Assembly: GCA_017557435.1 (NCBI GenBank)
Contig: JAFYYR010000022.1
Span: 1 to 35,124, forward strand
DNA: 35,124 nt
Source: Pseudobutyrivibrio sp.
GTDB lineage: Bacteria > Bacillota > Clostridia > Lachnospirales > Lachnospiraceae
Direction of reading: 5' to 3'
A program made the position numbers and the translations under genes. Below, piece after piece: positions 1 through 35,124 of this stretch (positions are counted from its first letter, which is position 1; each line of letters opens with the position of its first letter). The notes below the pieces were generated by a model. That model was given only the letters and a program-made list of their open reading frames with translations. It was not told where the DNA came from and did not search any database.

Positions 1-400
1 ATGGTTCTGAGGGTGTTTGGGGCGATTTTGGAATGAGCTTAGAAAAATATAAAGCAGGTTTTGTAATATATATGCAGCTGCCGCTAGGACGGCGGCAGCA
101 GTGGTCACGCTGAGACACGATGTCGAATGTGCCACGGTGCAGATATATACAAAACCTGCTTTTTAATTTTTCTTAGTGAATGTATCATGAGCCCCAAACA
201 CCCTCTTAAGAATCATTTTGTAAAACTGCCATTGTTACCAATAGGTGTCCACACAGGTCAGCTACATTTTTGAAAACAATGTATTCTTAAAAAGACGCAT
301 GCTAGATGTTCACTCTTTGCATATTGAAAAACTATAATATTCGCAAAAATTGTTCCTACCCCACGGTCTTCCAGCGGAAAGGGGTCATGGCTGGCCTGAG
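1..400 (+). repeat. Large palindromic element, copy A (core and right arm; left arm cut by window start)
   Basis: The core lies at 36-177. Within it, 77-84 pairs with 92-99 (GCTGCCGC/GCGGCAGC), 114-117 pairs with 121-124 (GACA/TGTC), and a long AT-rich stem brings roughly 40-76 against 140-175. Outside the core, 9-23 and 191-205 form a perfect 15-bp stem (GAGGGTGTTTGGGGC with its complement). The right arm continues to about 397 and holds the ordered blocks shared by all arms of the family, including GTGTCCACAC at 245-254. Bases 1-122 are identical to 35003-35124. The core differs from copy B at about three positions. No coding sequence with a ribosome site is visible. It could be a structured RNA gene or a hairpin-type mobile element; the sequence alone does not decide. 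Confidence 0.85.
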
Positions 401-445
401 AAAGTGATGAGGCTGCAAAAAGTAGCCTGAGCCACCTATTCAGTG

Positions 446-475
446 TTGATGGCCAATTCCCATATTTGATATAAT
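446..475 (+). promoter_or_regulatory. Sigma-A-type promoter for the HerA-like gene
   Basis: TTGATG (446-451) is followed after 18 bases by a perfect TATAAT (470-475), about 40 bases upstream of the start codon. It lies just outside the right arm of element copy A, so transcription of the downstream gene does not need to cross the element. Confidence 0.6.
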
Positions 476-13703: not shown

Positions 13704-13910
13704 TACAAGATACCGACTTTTTCCTAACCTGGGATGTACGATTTAACTTATCCTTTTTGAACCTACATTTACTTTAAACGGAATGCCTATATTTCTAATT
13801 GGCTGTCAGGCCTCCTTTGCAGTGGAAGACAAAAGATTAGTTGCGGCGATCCACCTAGCTAGAGCTAGGAGTCAATTGATAGGCCCGGCATTTTGGGTTA
13901 GGTTTTATTA
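13704..13910 (+). ncRNA. ssrS: Probable 6S RNA
   Basis: A stand-alone RNA of about 200 nt with a -10 box and a strong hairpin after it, and no reading frame. The ends pair: CCTAACC (13723-13729) with GGTTAGG (13896-13902). Inner pairings include CCTAT/ATAGG, AATTGGCT/AGTCAATT, GTGGA/TCCAC and a CCTAGC/GCTAGG hairpin. These give the rod-like, repeatedly bulged shape of 6S RNA. The segment GCGGCGATCCACCTAG recalls the conserved 3' side of the 6S central region. 6S RNA binds sigma-A RNA polymerase as a promoter mimic in stationary phase. The assignment rests on shape, size and partial motif memory, not on a covariance search. Confidence 0.6.
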
Positions 13911-14095
13911 TTCAAAGTAGTAAAAAATAAGAGTTATCTATCTTCCAAATTTATTTGGGAAGTAGATAACTCTTATTTTTTGCTAACTTGAATAAGTTCG
14001 CCTATTCCATGAGTAACGGCCACGTTACGAATGGGATGGGCAGACTTTGAATAATAAAACTCGAATTGGGTGAGAGAACTTTGAATAATAAAGTT
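13903..14095. repeat. Threefold ACTTTGAATAATAAA repeat enclosing two hairpins
   Basis: The 15-16-base sequence occurs at 13903-13919 (minus), 14044-14061 (plus) and 14078-14095 (plus). The first two form an inverted repeat around 157 bases. Inside are the terminator hairpin and a second stem-loop (14001-14018 with 14023-14040). The whole could be a small MITE-like insertion behind the RNA gene or a cluster of binding sites. No reading frame is present between 13488 and 14171 other than these features. Confidence 0.5.
13922..13981. terminator. Strong bidirectional terminator hairpin after the 6S candidate
   Basis: A 25-base arm (13922-13946) pairs with 13957-13981 with one unpaired base, flanked by A-run and T-run. 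It is longer than needed for termination and lies inside the repeat-rich stretch that follows the RNA gene. Confidence 0.85.
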
Positions 14096-29573: not shown

Positions 29574-29957
29574 TTATTTATGTCCTTCGGCCTTAGCCAT
29601 GAACTTCTCGTTGTTGATAATGAATCTCTCGTGTGTACCCATACCAACCATACCGTTTTCATCTGAGCAAACAACTTCAAAGGTAAGCTTACGACCGTCA
29701 ATCTCTATAAGAGTGGCCTCACACATAACAGTCTTACCTATTGCACTAGGTGCCATGTGGCTTACATTAACCTTTGTGCCTACAGATCCAAGTCCTTCCT
29801 CAAGCTCTGGCTGAATCATCTTCCAGCAGGTCTCCTCCATCAGTGAAATCATAGCAGGAGTAGCAAAAACCTCCAGGGCTCCACTAGTAAATGCCTTAGC
29901 AGTATTATCAATAGTCACAACAGTTTCGGCGGACCCCTTCATTCCAATCTCAAGCAT
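29574..29957 (-). CDS. FlK-like hotdog-fold acyl-CoA thioesterase
   Basis: A 127-residue hotdog-fold protein. It closely follows the layout of FlK, the fluoroacetyl-CoA thioesterase family: the FATPAMISLMEETCW segment, then VGTKVNVSHMAPSAIGKTV. The three catalytic positions of FlK (Thr, Glu, His) match here as Thr33, Glu41 and His67, with identical spacing (8 and 26). Fluoroacetate itself is an unlikely substrate; clearing another short acyl-CoA is more plausible. AAGGAG lies before the ATG. It is transcribed toward ftsZ and away from argS, and its promoter region is occupied by the left arm of the palindromic element copy B. Confidence 0.85.
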   Translation of the reverse strand: MLEIGMKGSAETVVTIDNTAKAFTSGALEVFATPAMISLMEETCWKMIQPELEEGLGSVGTKVNVSHMAPSAIGKTVMCEATLIEIDGRKLTFEVVCSDENGMVGMGTHERFIINNEKFMAKAEGHK

Positions 29958-30007
29958 AGTAAATTATCTCCTTAATCATATTTTATATAAACTCATTATA
30001 AAACCTT

Positions 30008-30793
30008 CGGAGAAAAATTAAACCCATGTTTCCGCATTTATCCACTTTTCGGCGCAAGTCCATCTGCCCCGCCTCCCAAAGAAGACCCCGGGCCGCCTGC
30101 CCCTGTTATATGATTGGAATGGACCCACCTGCTGTCCAAGGGTATCTTGCTATCAATTCAGCGAATATTTGTAGTTTTTCTTTACGCCAAAAATTGACGA
30201 CGCCGGGTGTCTTTTGAGGAATGAACCTTTTTCAAAAGTGTTAGATTTAGGTGCGGACACATTAATTATTCATACAGCTTCTACAAATGGTTCTCAGGGG
30301 GGGAGGGGCTCATTATACATTCGCTAAGAAAAATTAAAAAGCAGGTTTTGTATATATCTGCACCGTGGCACATTCGACATCGTGTCTCAGCGTGACAACT
30401 GCTGCCGCCATCCTAGCGGCAGCTGCATATATATTACAAAACCTGCTTTATATTTTTCTAAGCTCATTCCAAAATCGCCCCTCCCCCCCTGAGAATCATT
30501 TGGAAGCTGTATTTTCAGTATTTTTTAGTGTCCGCACATAAACTACACTTTTGAAAATTGTACAGGCCTACAAAAGACACCGAAATAGCGGCGTCAATTT
30601 GCGTATTAGAAAAACCAAATATTCATGCTGTGATAGCAAGATACCCTTTTAGATAGTAGGTGGGTCCGTGTTTATTTTTTGCAAATAGGGGCAGGCGGCC
30701 CGGGGAGAGAGTTGGAGGGGCAGGTGGAAGGGGCGAAGATAAAGTGGATGGGAGATTGTGGAAACATGGGTTTTGTGTTATAATTTCTCTCCG
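30008..30793 (-). repeat. Large palindromic element, copy B (complete)
   Basis: The whole 786-base stretch is one imperfect palindrome. The outermost pair is CGGAGAAA (30008) with TTTCTCTCCG (30793 end). CCCATGTTTCC, CCGGGCCGCCTGCCCCT, GGGTATCTTGCTATCA, GGTGTCTTTT, TTTTCAAAAGTGT and GTGCGGACAC (30251-30260 with 30528-30537) each recur as complements in the other arm in mirrored order. The 142-base core (30323-30464) is in reverse orientation to copies A and C and nearly identical to them. Next to it is a perfect 17-bp stem, CTCAGGGGGGGAGGGGC (30293-30309) with 30477-30493, which differs in sequence from the stem of copy A. Open reading frames inside have no ribosome sites and mirror each other. 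No transposase is present. Confidence 0.93.
30756..30784 (+). promoter_or_regulatory. argS promoter inside the palindromic element
   Basis: TTGTGG (30756-30761), 17-base spacer, perfect TATAAT (30779-30784). These bases belong to the outer end of the right arm of copy B. The left arm has the equivalent GGAAACATGGG block but not the TATAAT at that position. Confidence 0.65.
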
Positions 30794-30838
30794 TGAGTTT
30801 GTATAAATTATTGTGATTATTTATAGATGGAGGATACG

Positions 30839-32599
30839 ATGAAAGAGATTCTTATGCAGATTAAGGAGGTCGTAGTCGAGGGCTTTAAGGCTGCGGGCTA
30901 TGATGAGAAGTACGGTATGGTTTCGCTTTCCAATAGACCAGACCTTTGCCAGTTCCAGTGTAATGGTGCTATGGCAGCTGCCAAGGAATACAAGAAGGCT
31001 CCTATTGCTATTGCAAATGAGGTAGTGGAGAAGCTTTCTGCTAATTCTATGTTTTCTAAGTGTGAGGCATGTCCTCCAGGATTTATTAATATGAATTTGT
31101 CGGATGAATTCATTTCTGAGTTCGTATCGACTATGGCTGATGATACAGAGCGCTTTGGTGTAGACAAAGTTTCTTCACCTAAAAAGGTTATGATTGATTA
31201 TGGCGGACCTAATGTTGCTAAGCCACTTCACGTTGGTCACCTTCGTTCTGCTATTATTGGTGAGTCAATTAAACGTACAGCTCGTTTTATGGGCGATGAG
31301 GTTATCGGTGATGTGCATCTTGGAGATTGGGGTCTTCAGATGGGTCTCATCATTACTGAGCTTAAGCTTCGTAAGCCAGAGCTTGTATATTTCGATGAGA
31401 ATTATGATGGAGAGTATCCAACAGAGGCTCCATTTACTATTTCAGAGCTTGAGGAGATTTATCCATGCGCTTCTGGTAAGTCAAAGGAAGACGAGGCTTA
31501 TAAGGAGGCAGCTCTTAAGGCTACATTTGAGCTTCAGCATGGTAGAAGAGGCTATCAGGCACTTCTTTCACATATTCTTAATGTTTCAGTTAATGACTTG
31601 AAGCGTAACTATGAGAAGCTTGACGTTACATTTGACCTTTGGAAGGGTGAGTCAGACGCACAGCCTTACATTCCTGACATGGTTCAGAAGATGAAGGATG
31701 AAGGATTTGCCTATATTTCAGAGGGTGCACTTGTTGTTGATGTTAAGGAAGAGACAGATACAAAAGAAGTTCCACCATGTATGATTCTTAAGTCAGATGG
31801 TGCTTCACTTTACAATACAACAGATCTTGCTACTATGGTTTGGAGAATGAAGGATTACAATCCAGATTCTATCGTGTACGTAGTAGATAAGAGACAGGAG
31901 CTTTACTTTACACAGGTATTTAGATGTGCGAAAAAGACTGGTATCGTTCCAAATAGCACTAATCTTTACTTCGTAGGCTTCGGTACTATGAATGGCAAGG
32001 ATGGTAAGCCATTTAAGACACGTCAGGGTGGCGTTATGAGACTTGAGTATCTTCTTCAGGAGGTTGAGGATAAGATGCTTGAGAAGATTAAAGAGAATGG
32101 CACAATGAATGATGAGGATGCTGAGAAGACAGCAGCTATTGTTGGTCTTTCAGCTGTTAAATATGGTGACCTTTCTAACCAGGCTTCAAAGGATTATATC
32201 TTCGATATCGATAGATTTACATCTGCCGAGGGTAACACAGGTCCATATATCCTTTATACAATCGTTAGATGTAAGTCAATCCTTACAAAGGCAGGAGTAA
32301 GCACTTTCGATGGCAAGATTCTTCCTGCTCACTCAGATTCAGAGAGAGCTCTTCAGCTTGAGCTTACTAAGTTCATGGCTGCTCTTTCATCAGCTTACGA
32401 GGAGATGGCTCCTCACAAAATTTGTGCTTACATTTACGATTTAGCAAATGCTTTCAACAGATTTTACCATGATACTAAGATTTTGGCTGAAGAAGATGAA
32501 GCTGTTAAGGCTAGCTACTTGAAGCTCTTATGGCTTACAAGAGGTGTGCTTGAAAAGGCTATCGAACTTCTCGGCTTTAATGCACCGGAGCGTATGTAA
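30839..32599 (+). CDS. argS: Arginyl-tRNA synthetase
   Basis: 586 residues from ATG 30839; the ATG at 30827 overlaps the GGAGG that serves the later start. It is a class I synthetase with the N-terminal Add-1 domain (about 1-95), the HIGH-type motif as HVGH in GGPNVAKPLHVGHLRSAIIG (about 127-140), and a late KMSK-like loop in which the region reads FKTRQGGVMRLEYLL. The C-terminal DALR anticodon domain begins near SADS/ERALQLELTKFM. It attaches arginine to tRNA. The methyltransferase gene starts on the base after the stop, so the two are translationally coupled. No T-box leader is visible; regulation may involve the palindromic element in which the promoter lies. Confidence 0.97.
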   Translation: MKEILMQIKEVVVEGFKAAGYDEKYGMVSLSNRPDLCQFQCNGAMAAAKEYKKAPIAIANEVVEKLSANSMFSKCEACPPGFINMNLSDEFISEFVSTMADDTERFGVDKVSSPKKVMIDYGGPNVAKPLHVGHLRSAIIGESIKRTARFMGDEVIGDVHLGDWGLQMGLIITELKLRKPELVYFDENYDGEYPTEAPFTISELEEIYPCASGKSKEDEAYKEAALKATFELQHGRRGYQALLSHILNVSVNDLKRNYEKLDVTFDLWKGESDAQPYIPDMVQKMKDEGFAYISEGALVVDVKEETDTKEVPPCMILKSDGASLYNTTDLATMVWRMKDYNPDSIVYVVDKRQELYFTQVFRCAKKTGIVPNSTNLYFVGFGTMNGKDGKPFKTRQGGVMRLEYLLQEVEDKMLEKIKENGTMNDEDAEKTAAIVGLSAVKYGDLSNQASKDYIFDIDRFTSAEGNTGPYILYTIVRCKSILTKAGVSTFDGKILPAHSDSERALQLELTKFMAALSSAYEEMAPHKICAYIYDLANAFNRFYHDTKILAEEDEAVKASYLKLLWLTRGVLEKAIELLGFNAPERM

Positions 32600-34785: not shown

Positions 34786-34799
34786 TTACCCTCTAGGAT

Positions 34800-35124
34800 T
34801 CACAGCAAATCCAAGTGTGTGTTCCTAGGCCCTGGCCCATGCCCTGCCGGCACCCCTGGCTGGTAACTTTGCAAGAATATTATGTTTTTCATATATGCAA
34901 AGTTCACATCTTTTATAGGCATGTGTCTTTTTCAAGCCTCCACAGTTTTCAAAAAAGTAGCTTCTGTGTGGACACACTGTACACTTAGATGGCAGTTTAA
35001 AAATGGTTCTGAGGGTGTTTGGGGCGATTTTGGAATGAGCTTAGAAAAATATAAAGCAGGTTTTGTAATATATATGCAGCTGCCGCTAGGACGGCGGCAG
35101 CAGTGGTCACGCTGAGACACGATG
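34800..35124 (+). repeat. Large palindromic element, copy C (left arm and part of core; cut by window end)
   Basis: The left arm runs from about 34827 to 35010, with GAATATT at 34875, GTCTTTT at 34924, TTTTCAAAA near 34946 and GTGTGGACAC at 34966-34975, followed by GGCAGTTT at 34991. The core starts at about 35038 and is cut inside its apical hairpin at 35124. Bases 35003-35124 equal 1-122. The arm is complementary to the right arm of copy A (for example GTGTGGACAC with 245-254, GGCAGTTT with the AAACTGCC near 224-231), more so than to copy B. This is what would be expected if A and C are two parts of one element. The short reading frame at 34882-35115 runs through this fold and is not a gene. 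Confidence 0.85.

Follow-up and report, generated by a model that had tools for sequence, protein, structure and literature searches.

The 35-kb contig of Pseudobutyrivibrio sp. analysed here (35,124 nt in full, hereafter the window) carries chromosomal housekeeping genes, among them what appear to be ftsZ, argS and pckA. Between two of its genes lies a long quasi-palindrome, element B, which raises the question of what kind of element it is and what keeps its arms complementary. The palindrome of 786 nt that a sequence-only reading had placed at 30008-30793 was borne out at close to these coordinates. A BLAST comparison of the region with itself pairs approximately 30020-30773 (71% over 801 columns), and a looser self-alignment, at 82.6% identity over 397 aligned pairs with 75 gap columns, extends over 29932-30871. 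Self-complementarity scored 166 here, whereas 60 shuffled controls averaged 15.1 and never exceeded 21.5. The outer arms contain closely paired stretches (e.g., 30120-30155 with 30631-30667) and, by eye, extend to promoter-like sequence on both sides. The features of B and of two partial elements at the contig ends are collected in Table 1.

Table 1. Elements A, B and C of the window, with the parts and gene neighbours of element B.
Feature	Position	Strand	Remarks
Element B, whole quasi-palindrome	30008..30793	-	divergent intergenic region between the thioesterase gene and argS
FlK-like thioesterase gene, left neighbour of B	29574-29957	-	
argS, right neighbour of B	from 30827	+	
Core, TwoAYGGAY RNA (Rfam RF01731)	30313..30473	-	full model (1-168) matched at 62.9 bits; gathering score 43
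Core hairpin 1	30401..30423	-	9-bp stem, GGA in loop (AGGAT); putative CsrA site; stem covaries
Core hairpin 2 region (approximate)	30362..30399	-	no GGA hairpin found there in B
Inner arm, low-coordinate side	30160..30312		mismatches and bulges against its partner; conserved in G008 copies
Inner arm, high-coordinate side	30474..30627		conserved in G008 copies
Outer arm, low-coordinate side	30008..30159		sequence private to B among the genome's seven copies
Outer arm, high-coordinate side	30628..30793		end adjoins the argS promoter-like region
Element A	1..470	+	end approximate; left half missing at contig end; partial core (~24-190) and right arm
Element C	34788..35124 (start approximate)	+	right half missing at contig end; left arm and part of core

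The centre of the palindrome proved to be a known RNA motif. At gathering score, only two Rfam families match in the window, 6S RNA and TwoAYGGAY (RF01731), and the latter is the core of B, whose RNA strand is the minus strand, read from 30473 to 30313. The claim that no named family fits, which the sequence-only reading had itself tied to the core matching no Rfam family, is thus overturned: the core is RF01731, at 62.9 bits for a cut-off of 43. The same reading had seen no likeness to group II introns, OLE, GOLLD, ROOL or HEARO RNAs, and here the scan agrees, none of these reaching gathering score anywhere in the window. With relaxed settings, 29900-30900 gave two additional matches that lie far under their cut-offs. 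Four further copies in the same genome match RF01731 at 48.4-64.5 bits.

TwoAYGGAY was described as probably an RNA and probably not cis-regulatory, occurring in human gut sequences, gamma-Proteobacteria and Clostridiales, and as a motif without assigned function (Weinberg et al. 2010, PMC2864571). The family has since been given an improved structure (PMC11701678), and a proposal of 2014 holds that it binds CsrA (PMC4333381); in the passages seen here, no function has been shown for the motif since 2010. The elements of Pseudobutyrivibrio resemble it in matching the full model above gathering score and in having covarying hairpins. They differ from it in two respects. Here the motif lies in the middle of a palindrome that occurs in many copies and has both inner arms and private outer arms. 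In addition, the two GGA hairpins that characterise the motif are reduced in B to a single one (AGGAT), a second GGA hairpin being rare in Pseudobutyrivibrio; because it is missing, B is regarded as a derived TwoAYGGAY relative by score. No description of a palindromic multicopy setting for TwoAYGGAY was found in the titles, abstract openings and passages of the literature searched, so that within this literature a known RNA motif appears inside a kind of multicopy palindrome not found described.

Elements A and C share the core of B, as had been proposed: A matches B at 95% identity over 195 nt, and A and C have 122 identical nt. Element A lies upstream of a herA-like helicase gene (514) and element C directly after a YitT-family gene. 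A circular element, suggested by the 122-nt repeat at both contig ends, was rejected. The outer arms of A and C look unrelated by eye, so that A and C are taken as two separate elements and the contig as no circle; the apparent chromosomal housekeeping genes also speak against circularity. The shared 122 nt probably mark the point at which the assembly broke.

In the genome that contains the window the copies number no fewer than seven (A, B, C and L001-L004), and other genomes, in which the core was to be sought, also hold dispersed copies. RF01731 was found in 27 of 29 Pseudobutyrivibrio genomes, with 0 to 49 matches each as lower bounds, and in 65 of 397 genomes of the family, likewise a lower bound with 6 candidates scored per genome; 14 control genomes gave no match. 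All copy numbers are lower bounds, the Rfam search having missed a copy in the window and having found 10 sites in G002 where DNA queries found 16. The impression that G002 and G003 have only half of their copies in common was rejected as a product of this undercount, both extra loci that were checked being shared. An exact 21-base core motif occurs in 39 stretches of named genomes, 36 of them in Pseudobutyrivibrio, and the remaining three are probably chance matches.

The core bears the marks of a structured RNA. Covariation, which had been put forward as a check, is present: in an alignment of 54 of the 144 cores, from which the structure was also drawn, the core scores 0.699, compared with 0.204 when shuffled and at most 0.204 when slid. 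In the same 54 cores, 87.3% of hairpin cells are paired (58.1% shuffled) and both sides have changed in 308 cells (115 shuffled), while two of the five covariation measures, pairs and types, do not exceed the shuffles. Hairpins with GGA in the loop are confined largely to one strand. Among the genus cores they occur in 111 of 114 on the RNA strand, in 5 on the other strand and in 26 after shuffling, and in other genera in 26, 7 and 8 of 30, respectively; the GGA count is biased upward, since the copies were collected with the Rfam model. Of the two strands of the core, the RNA strand is the more stable in 102 of 114 copies of the genus; for other genera the figure is only 17 of 30. Hairpin covariation and strand-specific GGA loops together argue that the RNA of the core matters, and the core is presumably transcribed.

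These loops point to the RNA-binding regulator CsrA. Its consensus from SELEX is RUACARGGAUGU, the GGA of which lies for the most part in hairpin loops, according to the passages available (PMC7652899). A CsrA match (PF02599) is present in 62 of 65 family genomes that carry RF01731 and in 148 of 332 that do not (Fisher p = 4e-16), a statistic that ignores phylogeny and motility. The genome of the window encodes csrA. The three carriers without a match are G195, G346 and G385, of which G346 is a 99%-complete single contig. Judged from loops and co-occurrence, the core most likely binds CsrA. A binder with two CsrA sites is a weakened proposition, because just 16 of 114 genus copies, B not among them, have a pair of GGA hairpins; in other genera, 11 of 30 copies have two or more. 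Dedicated CsrA-sequestering RNAs are known in Gammaproteobacteria, as the consulted text states (PMC4333381). The present elements would resemble such RNAs (CsrB and RsmZ), with binding as a prediction, in their GGA hairpin loops and in their near-restriction to csrA-bearing genomes, but would offer one or two putative sites per copy over many loci rather than many sites in one small RNA. If the core is indeed a CsrA ligand, many copies per genome would amount to scattered CsrA-binding sites or a distributed CsrA sink, and the co-occurrence with csrA makes the hypothesis directly testable outside Gammaproteobacteria.

The arms around the core consist of two parts. The palindromic span is 580-945 nt in 65 of 73 genus copies, 199-415 nt in seven and longer in one; in other genera the element spans 220-470 nt in 27 of 30 copies (the 30 loci include four cut by contig ends), likewise with private arms. 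In G008, the inner arms (~150 nt per side) are conserved among copies, arm mismatches included, and the outer arms are not. This alignment used 45 of the 49 matches of that genome, L012 and L016 (cut by contig ends and, alone among 34 loci, without palindrome) and L022 and L029 (shorter than 3000 nt) being excluded. In the outer segment, identity among the left arms of different copies is 48%; with the reverse complement of its own partner a left arm agrees at 77%, compared with 46% for the partners of other copies, and by this identity the own partner is the best match in 34 of 45 copies. A young subfamily of G008 copies has similar outer arms and ends.

A test of each arm against its own and foreign partners extended this result to 113 of 114 genus copies and 30 copies from other genera. 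One G008 copy was omitted (44 of 45), and seven duplicate loci, the versions with longer flanks, were removed. For outer arms, the scores within and between copies were 43.2 and 12.8 in G008 (own partner top in 33 of 44), 40.5 and 9.8 in the other genus genomes (50 of 69), and 34.1 and 9.8 in other genera (27 of 30), the top counts being reduced by related copies. Outside G008, the inner arms are also specific to the copy and match their partner (73.6 within, 22.6 between, top in 49 of 69). The earlier statement that the core is almost invariant and the arms are not thus holds widely, over all copies tested, but needs refinement: the inner arms are conserved among the copies of one genome and differ across the genus. 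Outer arms have a GC content of 55% compared with 41% in the flanks, and C exceeds G on the left outer arm in 100 of 114 copies.

Close species (argS identity 95.5-97.3%) make it possible to follow how such arms change. In eight orthologous pairs, the outer paired positions had changed on both sides with pairing kept in 14 cases and lost in 2; 30 had changed on one side, 527 were unchanged and 91 were lost to gaps, 63 of these coming from the first element of L235/L242, the outer window of its G006 copy not being palindromic. Inner positions gave 13 changed on both sides and paired, none unpaired, 37 changed on one side, 814 unchanged and 27 lost to gaps. In the clearest case, one G011/G006 pair, about 40 nt of the same changes appear on both G011 arms, which agree with each other and differ from both G006 arms; in L241/L250 the outer window is non-palindromic in both genomes. 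Relative to the flanks, the interior has opposite orientations in the two members of 5 of 12 orthologous pairs (L221/L228, one of two in L235/L242, L238/L243, C/L163 and L214/L229) and has the same orientation in the others (L222, the second in L235, L236, L241, L172, L213 and L217), the pair L216/L225 being excluded. By eye, arms also extend into host DNA: at the right end of L003 the last part of the upstream gene recurs in inverted form, and in the G002 counterpart of L217 the left flank is repeated.

The explanation that we favour, with moderate confidence and from sequence comparison, is a CsrA-binding core in a partly mobile palindromic repeat whose arms would be maintained by template switching of DNA. 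The element is a dispersed, non-coding palindromic repeat of three layers. The first is the TwoAYGGAY core, with one or two hairpins that have GGA in the loop as a putative CsrA site. The second consists of the inner arms, an imperfect, bulged hairpin conserved among the copies of one genome, and the third of the outer arms, a near-perfect C-rich/G-rich stem whose sequence is private to most copies. During replication, the polymerase may switch template at the palindrome, so that changes in one arm are copied into the other; sometimes it may copy adjacent host DNA, and often invert the interior. Most copies have a private stem because both arms change together. At least one subfamily, with 8-bp target duplications, probably entered new sites by transposition, presumably through a transposase acting in trans, and another copy occupies a position at which a relative has a terminator hairpin. 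Core identity, multicopy spread, private complementary arms, their concerted change in sister species, interior inversions and csrA co-occurrence are seen in the sequences themselves, and template switching, CsrA binding, transcription and the transposase are deduced from them.

Reported effects of template switching, as far as the consulted passages of both papers go, are a homogenisation of the arms of inverted repeats together with spacer inversion (PMC8604942) and the origin and upkeep of stems (PMC8794818). The likeness to quasipalindrome template switching in the parts of these papers and of PMC7202029 that were seen consists in arm homogenisation, multi-base compensatory change and spacer inversion. 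The present case differs in involving many loci of one repeat, arms that exceed 200 nt and a centre that is conserved, and in being drawn from sequence comparison only. Template switching cannot be the sole force, because inner-arm mismatches persist. Private self-complementary arms, their change in step between sister species and the frequent inversion of the centre offer a natural experiment on template-switch mutation and warn that covariation within a stem need not imply selection on RNA.

A bolder form of this explanation is tentative and rather doubtful: the elements may represent mobile repeats of a new class, namely self-templating hairpins with a CsrA-binding RNA as their cargo. If true, arms rewritten in concert would give each copy a private stem, and interior flips would create tens of invertible CsrA-binding loci in a genome, which could adjust the activity of CsrA and evolve with no recombination among them.

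It is unlikely that the elements are simply MITE-like, the long hairpin being the substrate of a transposase or single-strand recombinase in trans and the RNA core incidental or regulating the element. The elements share several traits with MITEs and REP palindromes: like those in the text consulted (PMC3733652), they are dispersed, non-coding and palindromic and lie more often in convergent than in divergent gene contexts, and some copies have terminal repeats and 8-bp target duplications. GTTACC-like ends resembling GTTACCATTCACAG flank ten copies on both sides, nine in G008 and one in G009, and four of the ten have exact 8-bp target duplications (none of 90 mismatched pairings reached 7 bp or more). 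An element of 192-193 bp that lacks the core is bounded by a nearly identical terminal repeat. Element L002 of the window's genome is missing at the corresponding sites of two relatives, G018 and G022, the latter having a terminator hairpin there. The inner-arm bulges seen by eye would also suit such an element. However, ends of this kind occur on both sides in only these 10 of 114 copies, B excluded, and at B no target duplication was noticed by eye. The covariation of the core hairpins and the strand-specific GGA loops also speak against it, as does the transposase ORF beside such ends, which has ends of its own and sits within the repeat. This IS4-type transposase was accordingly rejected as the owner of the GTTACYATTCACAG ends, since its own ends are CAATGTCATT... 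and it lies inside the repeat. The earlier suggestion of a hairpin-type mobile element moved in trans is therefore supported in part, given the dispersed copies, the 8-bp duplications and the empty site of L002, but no transposase could be assigned to it, the DDE_Tnp_1 ORF beside GTTACTATTCACAG in G028 having other ends. REP/BIME units measure 20-40 bp in the passages available (PMC3733652) and lack the private arms found here, and the spans of most genus copies uphold the description of B as far longer than REP.

At the site of B, the 330 nt that precede argS in G022 retain, by eye, remnants of the outer arms and no core. These arms without a centre suggested nested insertion of the core into ready-made palindromes, a candidate that was rejected; because the site is lopsided, it is read as a probable central deletion. 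In a survey of 26 loci upstream of argS, of which L138 and L152 do not extend over that region, L139 (G009) carries at this position what looks by eye like a degenerate TwoAYGGAY-like element, which may be either an old element or an independent insertion; in the other regions no such sequence was noticed by eye within the last 330 nt.

Decidedly improbable is the large structured RNA of 600-900 nt, in which the whole hairpin would be transcribed and its arms kept paired through RNA selection. The length over which most genus copies are complementary, the compensatory changes and the more stable RNA strand of most genus cores would be in accordance with it, as would the isolated mismatches of the inner arms, which favour G.U over A.C (85 vs 49; 238 vs 219 among all mismatches). 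In the outer arms of 100 copies, however, G.U is not favoured, with 170 cases against 202 A.C and 507 transversion mismatches, nor is it in other genera (36 vs 46), and the 786-nt RNA that the sequence-only reading had contemplated finds no support in these counts. Isolated outer-arm mismatches comprise 50 G.U, 65 A.C and 66 transversions, that is, 115 transitions against 66 transversions; the pattern looks like perfect palindromes under ordinary mutational decay, not like selection on one RNA strand. The inversions of the interior, indifferent to strand, and the short elements of other genera also weigh against a giant RNA. Because G.U is not favoured in the outer arms, DNA-level rewriting, likely by template switching, is the preferred source of their complementarity.

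The least probable explanation, a bidirectional transcription terminator grown into a long palindrome with arms kept for termination only, could draw on the gene contexts (28 convergent and 12 divergent among 100 copies with genes on both sides), on the terminator hairpin that takes the position of L002 in a relative and on the other hairpin at the L001 site in G022, but B itself lies between divergent genes, the conserved core and inner arms are left unexplained, and terminators are far shorter than these palindromes. In the same 100 copies, both neighbours are in sense orientation in 23 cases and in antisense in 37. Orientation toward neighbours thus gives no sign of sense read-through, and a 3' UTR element on the mRNA strand was ruled out by the absent orientation bias.

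Several side observations concern the exchange of hairpins. The L001 site in G022 was considered as an empty site; the element is absent there, but another hairpin occupies it (L313), of ~100 nt and of other sequence, where G000 has TwoAYGGAY. Orthologous elements may carry different types of core hairpin with inner arms alike, as in C compared with L163 and in L003 (L172) compared with L165; in L003 and its G022 counterpart, the inner arms are very similar, the outer arms changed and the core hairpins different. Four G022 copies have cores about equally near one core type of G000, which suggests concerted core replacement.

A second small repeat of 192-193 bp with GTTACTATTCACAG ends occurs at L077, L079, L087, L090 and L100 (G000, G001 and G028). 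It has no Rfam match at these loci, and its inner hairpin arms, by eye, differ between copies yet stay complementary. In two places in G028 (L261 and L262), an IS with a DDE_Tnp_1 transposase is inserted in the middle of the GTTACTATTCACAG inverted repeat, which thus serves as a target for other mobile DNA. Within the window, the 6S RNA (RF00013, 81.4 bits) lies at 13723-13903 and is immediately followed, at 13908-13995, by a 43-nt inverted repeat with 86% complementarity.
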